DNA from: Anaerolineaceae bacterium
Lineage (GTDB): Bacteria; Chloroflexota; Anaerolineae; Anaerolineales; Anaerolineaceae
NCBI GenBank assembly: GCA_016841365.1
Contig: JAENZI010000003.1
Span: 81,423-145,422, forward strand
DNA length: 64,000 nucleotides
Direction: 5' to 3'
The notes beneath the pieces were generated by a model, which made no database searches, was not told the DNA's origin, and saw only the letters and a program-made list of their open reading frames with translations. Below are positions 57,492 to 63,203 of this stretch, piece by piece; the stretch's first letter is position 1; each line of letters starts with the position of its first letter. Made by a program: the position numbers and the translations under genes.

Positions 57492-58046
57492 TTGAAGAAT
57501 AGAAATTTTTTTATAGGTGCCACAACCCTTACTGTGCTGAGCGTTATCTGGATCCTATTGACACCAACGATTTTCCCGAGGGTCGAAGGCGCTGCGCAAT
57601 CAACTGCAGCCCATCCCGGTTTTACTGCTCCTGACTTCACATTATCAACCCCGCAAGATCAAACTCTTTCCCTGGCTGATTTCCGCGGCCAACCGGTTCT
57701 GGTCTTCTTTTGGGCGTCCTGGTGTTCTGTGTGCAAAGCCACCATGCCCGGTCTGCAAGCTGTTTATCAGGATTATCAGGACAAGGGATTTGAACTATTA
57801 GCTATCAACACTACCTATCAAGACACATTGTCCACTGCGATCAATTACTACAATACCCAGGGATATTCATTCCCCTTCTTGATGGATGAATCTGGTTCAG
57901 TTTCTAAGGACTACCAACTGCACGCCCTTCCGACATCTGTGATGATCGATCCACAAGGCACGATCACAGATGTAATCATCGGTTCCGGCATGAGCGAGGG
58001 GTTCTTACGTTCTCTCCTTGATAACATGCTCGCTGAAAGGGAGTGA
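57492..58046 (+). CDS. TlpA/ResA-like membrane-anchored thiol-disulfide protein
   Basis: The 184-residue protein has an N-terminal signal anchor (about 8-28) and a thioredoxin fold: APDFTLSTPQDQTLSLADFRG, the redox motif ASWCSVCKATMPGL, and LLAINTTYQD followed by DYQLHALPTSVMIDPQG with the cis-proline. It should act outside the membrane as a disulfide reductase or carrier. The start is a TTG at 57492, supported by GAGGTGA at 57482-57488; no ATG serves. It is followed after 9 bp by the Lgt-FolK fusion, so the two are cotranscribed. Confidence 0.9.
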   Translation: MKNRNFFIGATTLTVLSVIWILLTPTIFPRVEGAAQSTAAHPGFTAPDFTLSTPQDQTLSLADFRGQPVLVFFWASWCSVCKATMPGLQAVYQDYQDKGFELLAINTTYQDTLSTAINYYNTQGYSFPFLMDESGSVSKDYQLHALPTSVMIDPQGTITDVIIGSGMSEGFLRSLLDNMLAERE

Positions 58047-58055
58047 GGTAGAACT

Positions 58056-59300
58056 ATGTTTCCAATCATCAACATCGGTCCCTTAGCCATTCAAGCTTAT
58101 GGTTTCATCCTCTTGCTAAGTGTGTTTATCGGTTTCTGGCTAAGCGGGAAATATGCAAAAAACCTGGGAACAAACGGCGATGCCATTGAAAATGGTTTAT
58201 TGATTGGGCTTCTAAGCGGCATTCTCAGTGCCCGAATTGGTTTTTTCCTGCAAAACCCTTCGCTATTCATGGAGAACCCATTAAGCCTTGTCTCACTAAC
58301 ACCCACAATGCTGAATGCAAACTTTGGGTTGTTAATCGGATTGTTGGCAATCTTTATCTATGCGCAAAAACAACACCTCCCACTATGGCCGACTTTAGAC
58401 ACGCTAACGCCTTTAATCATCCTGGTTTTCGGGGGCATGCACCTGGCAAACTATGCCAACGGTGATACCTATGGGCTTCCAACAAACCTCCCTTGGGGAA
58501 TCCAGCTTTGGAATGCCATCCGGCACCCCGTTCAACTATACGCAATCATTTTAGCCATCGGGCTTCTTGTATGGCTGTTGCTGAAAACCCAATGGCTGAA
58601 GCACAATCCTTATCCCCGCAGCGGCACATTATTCCTTTTCATTTTGGTCGGTTTAGCGGTCACCACCATTTTCACCCGATCCTTTGTCGCCCAAAAGTCG
58701 CAAATGTTAGGGTTAGACAGCCTTCAGTTACTTGCCTTTTTGCTTCTTTTGCTCAGTCTTTACCTCATTTATCAATTGTCCATCAAACCCCAAGAACACA
58801 TTCAGGTTTTTATCAGCCTGGGGTCCAACACGAACCCTGAAGAAAATTTTGCTGCAATTCAACAGCAGATCAAAGATGATTTTACATTCAGGCGCGCCTC
58901 AAGTATTTACAGGACACAGGATGTTAAGTCACCCCCTGCTAACGGCAGCTATTTTCTAAATCAAGTGATGGAAATTGAAACAAACCTCAGTTTTCAAACA
59001 CTAACAGAAAAACTCAAATCACTCGAACGTGACTTTGGCAGGATTCCCGGCGATAAGAAGGTTGTGCCTTTGGATATTGACCTACTGACCTACAACAATG
59101 ATGTCTTTACATATCAGAACAAGAAAATCCCCAACCCGGATCTCACCCAATACCAGTATATTGCTGTGCCTTTAGCAGAAATCGCAAGCGACTTTCGTCA
59201 TCCGGCAACCGGGAAAGCCATCGCCGAAATCTTAGATGACCTGCAAGATAAGACAACAGTTATCAAAATTGAAGAGGTGGAAAATGGAACTACAGGGTAA
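58056..59300 (+). CDS. Divergent Lgt-like membrane domain fused to HPPK (FolK)
   Basis: Residues 1-235 are polytopic and resemble prolipoprotein diacylglyceryl transferase (AIQAYGFILLLSVFIGFW, ARIGFFL, ANYANGDTYG, RHPVQLYA). The HGG motif around the essential histidine is replaced (LNANFGLLIG), so lipidation activity is doubtful. Residues about 250-405 form a complete 6-hydroxymethyl-7,8-dihydropterin pyrophosphokinase: VFISLGSNTNPEENF, YFLNQVMEIET, FGRIPGDKK and LDIDLLTYNN. The frame is continuous with no internal stop. The C-terminus overlaps the FolM-like gene by 17 bp, so pterin genes are coupled here. GAGG precedes ATG 58056. Confidence 0.85.
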   Translation: MFPIINIGPLAIQAYGFILLLSVFIGFWLSGKYAKNLGTNGDAIENGLLIGLLSGILSARIGFFLQNPSLFMENPLSLVSLTPTMLNANFGLLIGLLAIFIYAQKQHLPLWPTLDTLTPLIILVFGGMHLANYANGDTYGLPTNLPWGIQLWNAIRHPVQLYAIILAIGLLVWLLLKTQWLKHNPYPRSGTLFLFILVGLAVTTIFTRSFVAQKSQMLGLDSLQLLAFLLLLLSLYLIYQLSIKPQEHIQVFISLGSNTNPEENFAAIQQQIKDDFTFRRASSIYRTQDVKSPPANGSYFLNQVMEIETNLSFQTLTEKLKSLERDFGRIPGDKKVVPLDIDLLTYNNDVFTYQNKKIPNPDLTQYQYIAVPLAEIASDFRHPATGKAIAEILDDLQDKTTVIKIEEVENGTTG

Positions 59301-60015
59301 AACGGCACTGGTAACTGGCGGCGGAATCCGCCTTGGCAAAGCTTTTTCACTGGCACTGGCTAAAGAAGGTGTCAATATCATCGTCCAATACAATAGTTCA
59401 AAAAAGCCTGCAGAAGAAACAGCGGAAGAAATCCGCTCACTGGGAGTCAAAGCCGTCACAATCGGTGCAAACTTCAACAACCCGGATGCTGTCGAACAGA
59501 TTATCCCTCAATCACGTCAGCATTTCGACCAGGTTGATATTTTGATCAACAACGCAGCAGTCTATCTTAAGGGCAAAGGGCTGGAGACGAGCCGTGAGAT
59601 CTGGGAGAAACAATTCAGGATCAATCTGCAAGCACCTTTCATTCTCACCCGTGCGTTTGCCCAGCAACTGCCAAACGGTCAACCGGGCAGGGTGCTGAAC
59701 ATTGCGGATGCACAGATCATCCAGCATGACACAGACCATTTTGCTTACCGGTTGACGAAGTATGCCCTGGTTGAGATGACCCAGATGTTTGCTCTTGAAC
59801 TGGCGCCGGCGATTACCGTCAACGCCCTCGGTCTGGGCATTATGCTCCCCTTAGCAGGCAAAGAGGATGTGGACCTGCAGGCTTATGCCAACAATTACAT
59901 TCCTCTCAAACGCACAGGCAGCCCTGAAATTGCTGTCGAAAATGCCCTGCACCTGATCAAAAGCGACTTCACCACCGGTGCATTTCTCAGGGTTGACGGC
60001 GGTCAATACTTATAA
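59284..60015 (+). CDS. FolM/PTR1-like short-chain dehydrogenase (pteridine reductase-like)
   Basis: The 243-residue SDR has the PTR1/FolM-type cofactor loop TGGGIRLG, with the arginine that favours NADPH, NNAAVYLKG, the catalytic pair in YRLTKYALVEMTQ and the end TTGAFLRVDGGQYL. It aligns by motif with E. coli FolM (dihydromonapterin reductase). Immediately downstream of and overlapping the FolK fusion, it is likely a dihydropterin or dihydrofolate reductase. A start 48 bp earlier is in frame, but AGAGG supports ATG 59284. Confidence 0.82.
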   Translation: MELQGKTALVTGGGIRLGKAFSLALAKEGVNIIVQYNSSKKPAEETAEEIRSLGVKAVTIGANFNNPDAVEQIIPQSRQHFDQVDILINNAAVYLKGKGLETSREIWEKQFRINLQAPFILTRAFAQQLPNGQPGRVLNIADAQIIQHDTDHFAYRLTKYALVEMTQMFALELAPAITVNALGLGIMLPLAGKEDVDLQAYANNYIPLKRTGSPEIAVENALHLIKSDFTTGAFLRVDGGQYL

Positions 60016-60018
60016 ATC

Positions 60019-60735
60019 TCAGGCGCTGCCAAAAACGGGGATGGCTACCCCATTTACAGCATCCGATTCCTCTGATGCCAGGAAGACGATCACATCAGCA
60101 ATTTTCTCAGGCGCAACCCATTTCGAAAAATCTGCCTTAGGCATCTCTTTCCTGTTTTCAGGCGTATCAATTGTTGAAGGCATGACGCAATTCACCTGGA
60201 TCTGATATTGTCCCAGCTCATCTGCCAGGCTCTCCGTTAAACGTAAAAGCGCACCTTTAGCAGCCGCATACGCCCCCATCTTAGCCCCGCCTTTCAACGA
60301 AGCACGCGATCCTACGGTTATCACTTTCCCTGATTCGTTTTCAATCATTTCGGGCACAAAAGCTGCCGAACAATTCAAAAAGGATTGTACGTTCAGTGAC
60401 ATCATGCTTTGCCATGTTTCTGCTGATATCTGATCCACGCGCTCACCCATCGTAAAACCACCGACGGTGTTGACGATCACATCTACGCTGCCCACCTCCT
60501 CCCGAATTTTCTCCCCAATGCGCAGCATGCCTTCTCTATCGGTCACGTCTACATTATCAAAGATGTATAACATGCCATTGCCAGAAACAAAATCAACCAT
60601 GCCATCCAAACGACCCTGTTTATGATCCAGGCCGCAGACCGTGCATCCTTGATGTAAAAATGCCTTGCATACAGCGCTTCCAAGGTTGCCCGCGGCACCT
60701 GTTACGACAATAACTCGATCTTGTAAATTTCTCAT
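60019..60735 (-). CDS. Short-chain dehydrogenase with a dihydropteridine-reductase-like signature
   Basis: The 238-residue SDR has VTGAAGNLGSAVC, NTVGGFTMGERV, and the catalytic pair in YAAAKGALLRLTESLADELG. Its C-terminal block DTPENRKEMPKADFSKW is nearly the same as that of animal dihydropteridine reductase (QDPR), which recycles quinonoid dihydrobiopterin. Together with the pterin neighbours, this points to a dihydropteridine reductase rather than a fatty-acid reductase; that is inference. An upstream start would add seven residues; AAGGAAA supports ATG 60735. Its 3' end faces the FolM-like gene with only 3 bp between them. Confidence 0.78.
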   Translation of the reverse strand: MRNLQDRVIVVTGAAGNLGSAVCKAFLHQGCTVCGLDHKQGRLDGMVDFVSGNGMLYIFDNVDVTDREGMLRIGEKIREEVGSVDVIVNTVGGFTMGERVDQISAETWQSMMSLNVQSFLNCSAAFVPEMIENESGKVITVGSRASLKGGAKMGAYAAAKGALLRLTESLADELGQYQIQVNCVMPSTIDTPENRKEMPKADFSKWVAPEKIADVIVFLASEESDAVNGVAIPVFGSA

Positions 60736-60752
60736 CTGTTTTCCTTTTCGAT

Positions 60753-62156
60753 TCACTTAAAAACTGGCACGATATAAGATTTCAGAATCCAGCTTTCCCA
60801 CGCTTCTGCTGATACACCTAAATTCATTGCCTCATGATGGCTAATCAGTGGTGAGCCTGTCATGATCTCAGCTAACTGACCCGCTGGTTCAAATTTGCTG
60901 CGAAAGTCATGGTAAATTTGTCGGTCGTGAAGGTAACACCATGGTGCCAGCATGTATTGCTGATCTTCCGAGTGCACAGGCGGGGTGAAACGCAATACAT
61001 CTCGCTTTTCACATGACGTTATGATCTCAGCATAAGCCCTCACCTGTTTTCCAAAATCTAACTTCGATTGTAGATACCGGGTTGTTCCTTCTTCAATCTT
61101 ATCGCTGCCCTCATTGATAGCCAACACAGCATCCACGGCACCATCAATATCGCCGAAATGCACTTTTGCGACCAATTCATCTGGCAGCAGTGTTCGATGC
61201 ACCCCCACCCTTGCAACAATGCTCGGTGTGCCGCAAGCCATCGACTCATAGGCAACATTACCAAACGCTTCCACAATACTGCCCAAACACAGCGTGACAT
61301 TCCCAAGGCTGTAAAGTTCTGGCATCCGCTCGATAGGCAGCCACGGGATAAACATAAAATGATCAAGAACACCGAGGTCCGCCATCAGCCGCATCATCGC
61401 GTTATAAAATTCCGAATCCACTGATGAGGTCATTTCCCCGATCCATTCCGGCACAAGCACTTTGATGTTCGTCATCTGATAATCATTCACCAACCTTGCC
61501 GTCACCTGGATCGTTTCAGGCAATCCTTTGCCTGCTTCAGGCCTGTGTGGATGCAAGAAAATAAAATCTCGAGTCGGGTCTACACCCAACCTTCGAGCTA
61601 TGCGACTCGAGTCAACATCGGAAAAAACACCAAAGTCGATTCCATTATGGACCAGGTGCATCCGTTCTTTCAGACCGGGATAAAACCGTCCAGCAGTGTG
61701 TTCAATGACAGAAGAAGAATATTCAGAAACACAAACGATCTCATCCGCTTTGCCAGTAAAAGTGCCTAATACGGACTCGGGGTAAATATTATCTCTGAAT
61801 GAAATCACTGTTGGGATTTTTTCATAAACATCGGGGAGCAGCCACTCGCCATCGTGGATGTAAAATCGATCAGCCCCCCTTAAAGTATCGGTTAGTTTCT
61901 CCACCATAAGCGCTAAATCAGCACCGCTGACTGCATAAGGCTGTGGGAAGGGTAAATTAAACGCTAATTCCGGTAAAACTGTGACGTTCTCTGCCCACTT
62001 AAAATGATCTGCAGTACCTTTTGGTTTGGCACACAACACCACGACCTCGTGTCCAAGTTCGCCTAAATATCGGCTGATGTGATACAAATGTTTTGAAGCA
62101 CCGCCCGTGACACGATCATGATATAAGGGGTTAATCGAAAACATCACAATTTTCAT
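60753..62156 (-). CDS. GT4-like glycosyltransferase
   Basis: The 467-residue GT-B protein has an N-terminal FSINPLYHDRVTGGASKHLYH segment and the hinge LVHNGIDFG. The donor domain has FIFLHPHRPEAGKGLPETI, LYSLGNVTLCLGSIVEAFGNVAYESMACGTPSI, which keeps the E-x7-E glutamate pair. It transfers a sugar from a nucleotide donor; the acceptor is unknown. It lies 17 bp upstream of the QDPR-like SDR on the same strand, so the two are probably cotranscribed, which hints at a glycosylated pterin or at chance linkage. GAGG precedes ATG 62156. Confidence 0.85.
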   Translation of the reverse strand: MKIVMFSINPLYHDRVTGGASKHLYHISRYLGELGHEVVVLCAKPKGTADHFKWAENVTVLPELAFNLPFPQPYAVSGADLALMVEKLTDTLRGADRFYIHDGEWLLPDVYEKIPTVISFRDNIYPESVLGTFTGKADEIVCVSEYSSSVIEHTAGRFYPGLKERMHLVHNGIDFGVFSDVDSSRIARRLGVDPTRDFIFLHPHRPEAGKGLPETIQVTARLVNDYQMTNIKVLVPEWIGEMTSSVDSEFYNAMMRLMADLGVLDHFMFIPWLPIERMPELYSLGNVTLCLGSIVEAFGNVAYESMACGTPSIVARVGVHRTLLPDELVAKVHFGDIDGAVDAVLAINEGSDKIEEGTTRYLQSKLDFGKQVRAYAEIITSCEKRDVLRFTPPVHSEDQQYMLAPWCYLHDRQIYHDFRSKFEPAGQLAEIMTGSPLISHHEAMNLGVSAEAWESWILKSYIVPVFK

Positions 62157-62211: not shown

Positions 62212-62568
62212 ATGGACACCATTTTTATCAACAATCTGCAGGTTCAGGGGATATTAGGGATCCATCGCCATGAACAGCAGAACCCGCAACTCATCCAGAT
62301 CAGCGTGCGTGTCAGCACAGATATCCGCAATGCTGCTGTTAACGATGATATCCTTCAATCGGTTAATTATTCAACCCTGGCGAAGGATATCATTGAATTC
62401 ATTGATCACAACCATTTTCTTACTATCGAAGCCCTGATCGAATCACTGGCTGACAGAATCTTGCAAAGCCCACAAATTAGTGATGTGTGGCTGCGGGTCG
62501 AAAAGCCAAATGCTGTGCCTGCCGCAAAATCGGTAGGGGTAGAAATAACCCGCTCCAAAAAAGCTTAG
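62212..62568 (+). CDS. folB: Dihydroneopterin aldolase
   Basis: The 118-residue enzyme has the FolB fold: [19 protein letters not shown] near the start, [35 protein letters not shown] in the middle and [11 protein letters not shown] with the catalytic lysine. It converts 7,8-dihydroneopterin to hydroxymethyl-dihydropterin and glycolaldehyde, the substrate of the FolK domain encoded at 58056-59300. Its last 4 bp overlap folE on the opposite strand. Confidence 0.92.
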
Positions 62569-63203
62569 ATATGCAGGCTGGATGCACCACGGGAGATGTT
62601 GTTTAGAAATTCCATCCTGGTGGTGATTTCATCCCTGAAAACACCCAGCATTGCTGATGTCGTCATTCGGGCATCTTGTTTCTTCACACCGCGCAGCATC
62701 ATGCACATGTGTAATCCTTCAACAACAACCGCCACGCCCTGCGGATTAAGCACAAATTGAATGTACTCTGCAATTTGCGTCGTCATCCGCTCCTGAACTT
62801 GCAGCCGCTTTGAAAACAAATCCACAATACGTGGGATCTTCGACAAGCCGATGACCTTATCCGTTGGCACATATGCAATATGCGCCTTGCCAATAAACGG
62901 CAGCATGTGGTGTTCACACATGCTCGAAAATTCAATATCCCGCACGATCACCATCTCATCGTAAGCCACATCAAAAACAGCCTCGTTGATCAATGCCTTG
63001 GGATCCATGCGGTAACCGCTAAGCAGTTCTTCGTAGCTTTTCGCTACCCGGTGAGGTGTCCTTACTAATCCTTCACGGTCCGGGTCTTCGCCAATGGCGA
63101 CAAGGATATCCGCAACTGATTTTTCAATCGAGTCAATATCCATCTCTTCTTCACAAAACAAATCCGCTGCCTCAGCAAGGGGATCTCTACAATCATCTAC
63201 CAT
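62565..63203 (-). CDS. folE: GTP cyclohydrolase I
   Basis: The 212-residue enzyme has the zinc and substrate motifs [40 protein letters not shown] and [17 protein letters not shown]. It makes dihydroneopterin triphosphate from GTP, the first step of the pterin route. Length and motif order match FolE of type IA. GGAGG lies ahead of ATG 63203. It converges with folB. Confidence 0.95.

Follow-up and report, generated by a model that had tools for sequence, protein, structure and literature searches.

A conserved fusion of an Lgt-like membrane protein with an HPPK-type domain in Brevefilum, and a corresponding pterin operon in its relatives

The fusion gene, its neighbours and its distribution

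The window, the whole 64,000-nucleotide stretch of Anaerolineaceae DNA that was analysed, contains a group of pterin-related genes in which a single open frame, evident from the ORF reading, encodes a protein of 414 amino acids (Table 1). Pfam assigns the LGT family to residues 4–239 of this protein (96.1 bits, cut-off 24.9) and HPPK (PF01288) to residues 252–377 (cut-off 25.7). The gene is closely flanked on both sides, with the stop codon of tlpA at 58046 followed by the fusion ATG at 58056, and the ATG of the downstream short-chain dehydrogenase/reductase (SDR) gene lying inside the end of the fusion gene with an overlap of 17 nt. Together with the conserved gene order, this spacing agrees with the original prediction that TlpA, the fusion and the FolM-like SDR share one transcript. 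For a free HPPK made from an internal start, TTG codons are present in the window with no clear ribosome site by eye, and some relatives' fusions have an ATG at codon 255 that is a possible internal start.

Table 1. Genes and domains at the fusion locus, with positions in the window
Feature	Position	Strand	Basis
TlpA/ResA-like membrane-anchored thiol-disulfide oxidoreductase, WCSVC	57492..58046	+	Pfam AhpC-TSA 101 bits
Fusion gene, 414 aa	58056..59300	+	Single ORF; frame shared by 12 of 15 other genus genomes
Lgt-like half, aa 1-243, seven long helices	58056..58784	+	PF01790 96 bits; AlphaFold2 model; 5azb match Z 20.1
Linker, aa 244-248, past last helix	58785..58799	+	Secondary structure of model; gap-free surroundings in 13 sequences
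HPPK2-type domain, aa 249-414	58800..59297	+	PF01288 73.5 bits; TIGR01498 69.0 bits (cut-off 54.1); HPPK structures Z 23.8
SDR with TGX3RXG motif, FolM/PTR1-like pteridine reductase	59284..60015	+	adh_short 120.8 bits; NCBIfam pteridine reductase among best matches, below cut-off
FolB, dihydroneopterin aldolase	62212..62568	+	PF02152 107 bits; sole copy found in genome
FolE, GTP cyclohydrolase I, convergent with folB	62565..63203	-	PF01227 259 bits; sole copy found in genome

The SDR carries the sequence TGGGIRLG, an instance of the TGX3RXG motif given for FolM/PTR1-type pteridine reductases in the available portion of PMC1971073, and relatives were scanned for the same motif. Its score against the pteridine reductase model PRK09135 is 157.6 bits, and because the cut-off of 288 is not reached the protein is named here merely as pteridine-reductase-like.

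The genus to which the window belongs is Brevefilum, the name being taken from the records of two relatives, Brevefilum sp. KA23 and CSSed162cmA_390. By similarity search, the full uninterrupted fusion frame is present in 13 of the 16 genomes of the genus, counting that of the window, and the 12 other fusions are 50–56% identical to the window protein. In the remaining three genomes, the fusion is divided between two contig ends (G007), is represented by its last 97 amino acids at a contig end (G015), or gave no match in the similarity search (G005, 70% complete). An alignment of the 13 fused sequences has no gaps in the junction columns, residues 236–258. A fusion in one 414-codon frame, as first described from the sequence alone, is thereby upheld by the open frame, both Pfam domains and 12 other genus genomes; at the junction the relatives show the same frame and linker, with no stop and no separate genes. 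An assembly or sequencing artefact at this point, for which no support was found, is ruled out to a near certainty by the identical layout of frame and linker in those 12 genomes.

The family search covered 147 genomes at an E-value cut-off of 1e-30, and 51 matched, 14 of them genus members. The fusion was not seen in any of the 131 family genomes outside the genus in this search, and 37 of these carry a stand-alone Lgt-like half. A class-wide sample of 396 genomes (cut-off E 1e-25; 78 matched) yielded the fusion only in the three matching genus members (G000, the window's genome, G006 and G012), a distribution that, like the preceding one, comes from similarity searches with cut-offs from which a very divergent fusion could escape.

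Residues, fold and selection in the two halves

An AlphaFold2 model of the fusion, built from a 50-row alignment, has a mean pLDDT of 92.6 and a pTM of 0.87, and consists of seven long helices, a linker of about five residues and the HPPK domain. The N-terminal half of the model matches E. coli Lgt (5azb) over 237 residues at an rmsd of 3.2, and the C-terminal half matches the HPPK structure 4m5n with a Z score of 23.8 and an rmsd of 1.8 over 155 residues, so that both halves are confidently modelled as Lgt and HPPK folds. In the topology of Lgt the N-terminus is outside, and with this topology the HPPK domain is predicted to be cytoplasmic. The charge pattern agrees weakly with this placement.

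With E. coli Lgt (PF01790) the membrane half shares its fold, its seven helices and the RHPxQxY region, but the fused clade differs from Lgt in its C-terminal HPPK, in missing the cut-off of the NCBIfam Lgt equivalog TIGR00544 (61.4 against 118.9 bits for the window protein), and in key residues. Arg143, Arg239, Glu243 and Arg246 of Lgt are critical or highly conserved according to the available portion of PMC4728403. Their equivalents in the window protein are H129, T204, R208 and V211, and among the 13 fused sequences Arg never occurs at 129, 204 or 211, nor Glu at 208. At the site of the arginine network of Lgt, the fused clade has invariant T207, F210 and K214, with T204 in 12 of 13 sequences, a pattern that looks like replacement and not decay. 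Stand-alone Lgt-like proteins (n = 56) likewise include none with Arg at the Arg143 place, within the residues listed, and 27 of them retain the full Arg239-Glu243-Arg246 set.

Two other LGT proteins in the window's genome score 233 and 214 bits, compared with 98 for the fusion. These standard Lgts (L001 and L002, on contigs C13 and C17) have GIPGA and YFGA in place of HGG. Loss of the HGG motif had been pointed out in the fusion, and the motif is indeed absent, but since both standard Lgts of this genome are also without it, HGG is an unsafe marker of Lgt here and its loss is rejected as the sign of a dead enzyme; the telling losses are those at the Arg143, Arg239, Glu243 and Arg246 equivalents. 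These losses and the better-scoring Lgts elsewhere bear out the suggestion that the membrane part is probably not a working Lgt. Lipidation of the neighbouring TlpA by the Lgt-like protein was also considered and is unsupported, the window's TlpA having just the two CxxC cysteines.

The C-terminal half is accepted by the FolK equivalog TIGR01498. Residues are numbered as in E. coli HPPK, in which we take Asp95 and Asp97 to be metal-binding and Arg92, His115 and Arg121 to be ATP-site residues, and the numbering was carried to the fused sequences via the motifs of HPPK1, the separate canonical HPPK of these genomes. Like HPPK/FolK (PF01288), the fused domain has the fold, the metal aspartates and the equivalents of Arg82, Asn55 and Glu77; D340, D342, R329, N302 and E324, corresponding to Asp95, Asp97, Arg82, Asn55 and Glu77, are invariant in all 13 fused sequences. 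Unlike HPPK/FolK, it is joined to a membrane protein and lacks ATP-site residues: across the 13 full-length fused HPPKs, Arg92 is found in none, Arg121 in none at the aligned position (five have an Arg one residue past it) and His115 in one, whereas 15 of 15 HPPK1s keep all three. The domain had been called a complete HPPK, which stands for the fold and fails for the active site. By their PDB entry titles, structures of the HPPK mutants R82A, R92A and H115A have been solved.

In an HPPK tree with the root imposed on 15 HPPK1s and with L006, L007 and L129 left out, the fused sequences (10 included) cluster with 21 HPPK2s encoded in operons of relatives, with a support of 0.949. All fused, operon and HPPK1 sequences of this set keep the equivalents of Asn55, Glu77, Arg82, Asp95 and Asp97. 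Arg92 is present in 0/10 fused sequences, 21/21 operon HPPK2s and 15/15 HPPK1s; His115 in 1/10, 0/21 and 15/15; and Arg121 in 0/10, 9/21 and 15/15, where the stretch from His115 to Arg121 is shortened in the operon HPPK2s and the equivalences there are uncertain.

In the three closest pairs (dS 0.34–0.62; saturation affects most pairs at greater distance), dN/dS is 0.16–0.18 for the Lgt half and 0.14–0.25 for the HPPK half. Both halves are, on this measure, under purifying selection, and by the same comparisons the fusion is genuine and maintained. A neutral or decaying fusion, with the HPPK copy as a redundant relic, would fit the redundancy with HPPK1 and the disappearance of several ATP-site residues, but it is highly improbable given the low dN/dS of the HPPK half, the frame kept open in 13 genomes, the invariant residues and the compact, confident model.

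A corresponding operon outside the genus

Loci fetched from relatives were scanned with profiles built from the collected sequences. The census comprises 56 Lgt-like loci in 53 genomes outside the genus, 38 from the family search and 18 chosen from another similarity search; left out are the loci L009, L010 and L011, in all three of which TlpA stands beside the Lgt-like gene and no pterin gene is present, and also an additional, weak Lgt-like match in L122. All 56 loci have TlpA beside the Lgt-like gene, directly upstream on the same strand in 55 and convergent in one. In the 6 kb that follow the Lgt-like gene, on its strand, and as lower bounds given that some loci end at contig borders, a TGX3RXG SDR is found in 20 loci, FolB in 21 and HPPK2 in 18. 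One or more of the three occur in 24 loci, seven of which have a partial set, and 17 have all three in the order SDR - FolB - HPPK2, with 13 of the 17 also facing FolE. Three families (f1, f7 and f8) have the full set, and a further two (f6 and f13) have parts of it. Because the pterin-linked loci are scattered over the Lgt-like tree, these sequences suggest an old arrangement with losses, repeated gain being the alternative. SDR - FolB - HPPK2 facing FolE also stands apart in G025 and in G047 and G060, the latter two with their Lgt-like genes elsewhere.

The order differs in the genus, where the SDR follows the Lgt-like gene with its fused HPPK2, and FolB and FolE lie about 3.5–4 kb further on; FolB was found in nine of the ten loci that cover this stretch. 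Judged from the gene orders and the HPPK tree, the fusion is derived from the older operon tlpA - Lgt-like - SDR - folB - folK2, usually facing folE. Between the SDR and FolB lie a second SDR and a glycosyltransferase, both on the opposite strand (in the window, at 60019-62156 on the reverse strand, the latter of family 4). The same pair recurs at this place in genus loci and looks like an insertion into the older operon of pterin genes.

No pterin gene lies within 6 kb in 32 of the 56 outside-genus loci. Most conserved residues are common to the pterin-linked (24) and unlinked (32) Lgt-like proteins, and the differences that do appear may reflect kinship: Asp at 87 in 23/24 against 15/32, Asn at 132 in 11/24 against 2/32, and Arg at 204 in 18/24 against 15/32. 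The comparison of shared residues and the Lgt-like tree leave out L006, L007, L130 and L131. An apparent Lgt-like/SDR fusion from the first ORF scan (G042) was discarded as an overlapping open frame, Pfam having found no LGT there. In G143, a Lgt-like match (L102:1650-2279, aligned to residues 1-258 of the query) crosses one TGA, possibly the gene's stop codon that the alignment has read through.

A single open frame covers FolB and HPPK2 in eight outside-genus loci (L071, L104, L105, L108, L109, L112, L115 and L117), and HPPK2 has thus been fused to different partners in different lineages. By PDB titles, HPPK also forms part of a longer chain in FolB-HPPK (2cg8) and in HPPK-DHPS, but the partners there are soluble folate enzymes and here the partner is a membrane protein.

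Second folK copies and FolM clusters, in which an SDR pteridine reductase is tied to pterin genes as here, are already known from the available portion of PMC1971073, and in PruA-PruR-DcpA pterin signalling an SDR pteridine reductase is tied to a periplasmic pterin role (available portion of PMC13259868); the same portions of the two papers describe no Lgt homologue or comparable HPPK fusion. In the open-access literature, no description of the tlpA - Lgt-like - SDR - folB - folK2 operon was found, nor anything on folate in Brevefilum or on the prolipoprotein diacylglyceryl transferase with TlpA in Chloroflexi. The statement that no Lgt-FolK fusion had been described likewise agrees with the open-access literature, most subscription papers lying outside the search. 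A published sul4 with a truncated folK alongside, found in the literature on folate and Anaerolineae, is, from the available portion of its description, not the fusion gene.

Pterin genes elsewhere and the role of the fusion

The window's genome has one other HPPK, which scores 132 bits against 77 for the fusion. Because the same genome has two better-scoring Lgts and this better-scoring HPPK, the fusion is, on sequence grounds, unlikely to be the cell's Lgt or its main folate HPPK. FolB and FolE have one match each in the genome, both in the cluster of the fusion, and FolP lies elsewhere. HPPK1 is near FolP in four genomes (G018, G025, G028 and G042) and is not near it in the window's genome. 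Among the eight genus genomes that are at least 90% complete, seven have both HPPK1 and the fusion, and G011 (92%) has the fused HPPK alone, with FolP present; of eight less complete genus genomes, two have both, five have no HPPK other than the fused one, whole or in part, and G005 has no HPPK. The original prediction allowed for a membrane part that only anchors FolK. That a standard folate enzyme is merely tethered is not supported, given the separate canonical HPPK kept beside the fusion in those seven genomes and the missing ATP-site residues that all 15 canonical HPPKs retain. The original prediction did not take in the operon of relatives, where the two halves are encoded by separate genes, or the nearby folB and folE.

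DHFR (PF00186) scored over the cut-off in 3 of 20 genomes, and it was not found in any of the eight genus genomes tested (G000, G006 and G009-G014), though FolP is present in them. Because of this, the FolM-like SDR may serve as a dihydrofolate or dihydropterin reductase, a candidate stand-in for the missing DHFR. Two genomes that are 99% complete (G022 and G034) have the TlpA/Lgt-like pair, and genome searches found no FolB, FolE, FolP or HPPK in them, so pterins made by the cell itself are not a general requirement of the membrane protein. A pterin system acting as the missing reductant of TlpA was considered and is weakened by a CcdA/DsbD-type protein found in 20 of 20 genomes.

The reading that we favour, with our judgement about evenly balanced for and against it, is that a genus-wide fusion arising from the old operon ties to the membrane, and to the TlpA/Lgt-like pair, a pterin-handling domain that descends from HPPK and has changed its chemistry. 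By this reading, folK2, the last gene of tlpA - Lgt-like - SDR - folB - folK2, would have become attached to the Lgt-like gene at its 3' end. Comparison shows the operon in relatives, the fusion, the residue losses, the purifying selection and the two folds, and these count in favour of the reading together with the grouping of fused and operon HPPK2s, the invariant residues, the separate HPPK1 and the two better-scoring Lgts; the functional part is inferred. The Lgt-like half would serve as a membrane scaffold without lipidating activity, working with TlpA and keeping the HPPK-derived domain at the cytoplasmic face, where the domain would bind pterin, possibly reduced, supplied by FolE, FolB and the SDR, its ordinary ATP-dependent role as HPPK being gone. 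It might then either present the bound pterin to the membrane protein or carry out a changed, metal-dependent step on it, and folate itself would be made by way of canonical HPPK1, encoded separately, and FolP. Changes may extend to the pterin pocket, and pterin as the ligand is uncertain for that reason. Also against this reading are the TlpA/Lgt-like pairs of G022 and G034 and the 32 loci with no nearby pterin gene, the sharing of most conserved residues by linked and unlinked Lgt-like proteins, the acceptance of the HPPK half by a curated FolK model, the presence of FolP in G011 with the fused HPPK as its sole HPPK, and the Arg next to the Arg121 position in five fused sequences. The retention of the fusion across the genus hints that a membrane protein of the Lgt fold and a pterin enzyme act together.

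The main rival, which we regard as doubtful, is an anchored and still active HPPK with a remodelled nucleotide site, in which the fusion sets only the amount or place of the enzyme and the Lgt-like half has its own task with TlpA. Such an enzyme would explain why TIGR01498 is passed, why the metal aspartates, Arg82, Asn55 and Glu77 are kept, why the fusion has FolE, FolB and the SDR as neighbours, and why only the fused HPPK was seen in G011 and in four of the less complete genus genomes. It is harder to reconcile with the loss of Arg92 and Arg121 in 13 of 13 fused sequences and of His115 in 12, and with the canonical HPPK in seven of the eight near-complete genus genomes.

A machine for pterin transfer or export, in which the Lgt fold would move or attach activated pterin across the membrane and TlpA would keep an acceptor thiol reduced, we consider improbable. 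The conserved order TlpA - Lgt-like - SDR - FolB - HPPK2 facing FolE and the fusion itself would fit it, as would a chemical analogy: Lgt brings about thiol attack on a phosphate-bearing carbon, and such a carbon is also present in the products of HPPK. However, the fused Lgt half is without the Lgt catalytic arginines, TlpA/Lgt-like pairs occur in genomes without pterin synthesis genes, and no acceptor is known. As a long shot, the operon as a whole could encode membrane machinery by which reduced, activated pterin reaches the outer face, to be released there or attached to a thiol, with the Lgt-like protein as carrier or transferase, TlpA keeping the acceptor reduced and, in Brevefilum, a pterin-loading domain fused to the membrane part; if true, it would provide a first candidate for the export of pterin or its covalent attachment.

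The fusion also calls for caution in annotation: from its domain matches the protein would be labelled Lgt or FolK, yet it probably performs neither of these standard functions. In a separate observation, matches to HPPK and DHPS adjoin at G031:C1:256923-258197, each in an open frame of 459 amino acids, which suggests an HPPK-DHPS fusion.
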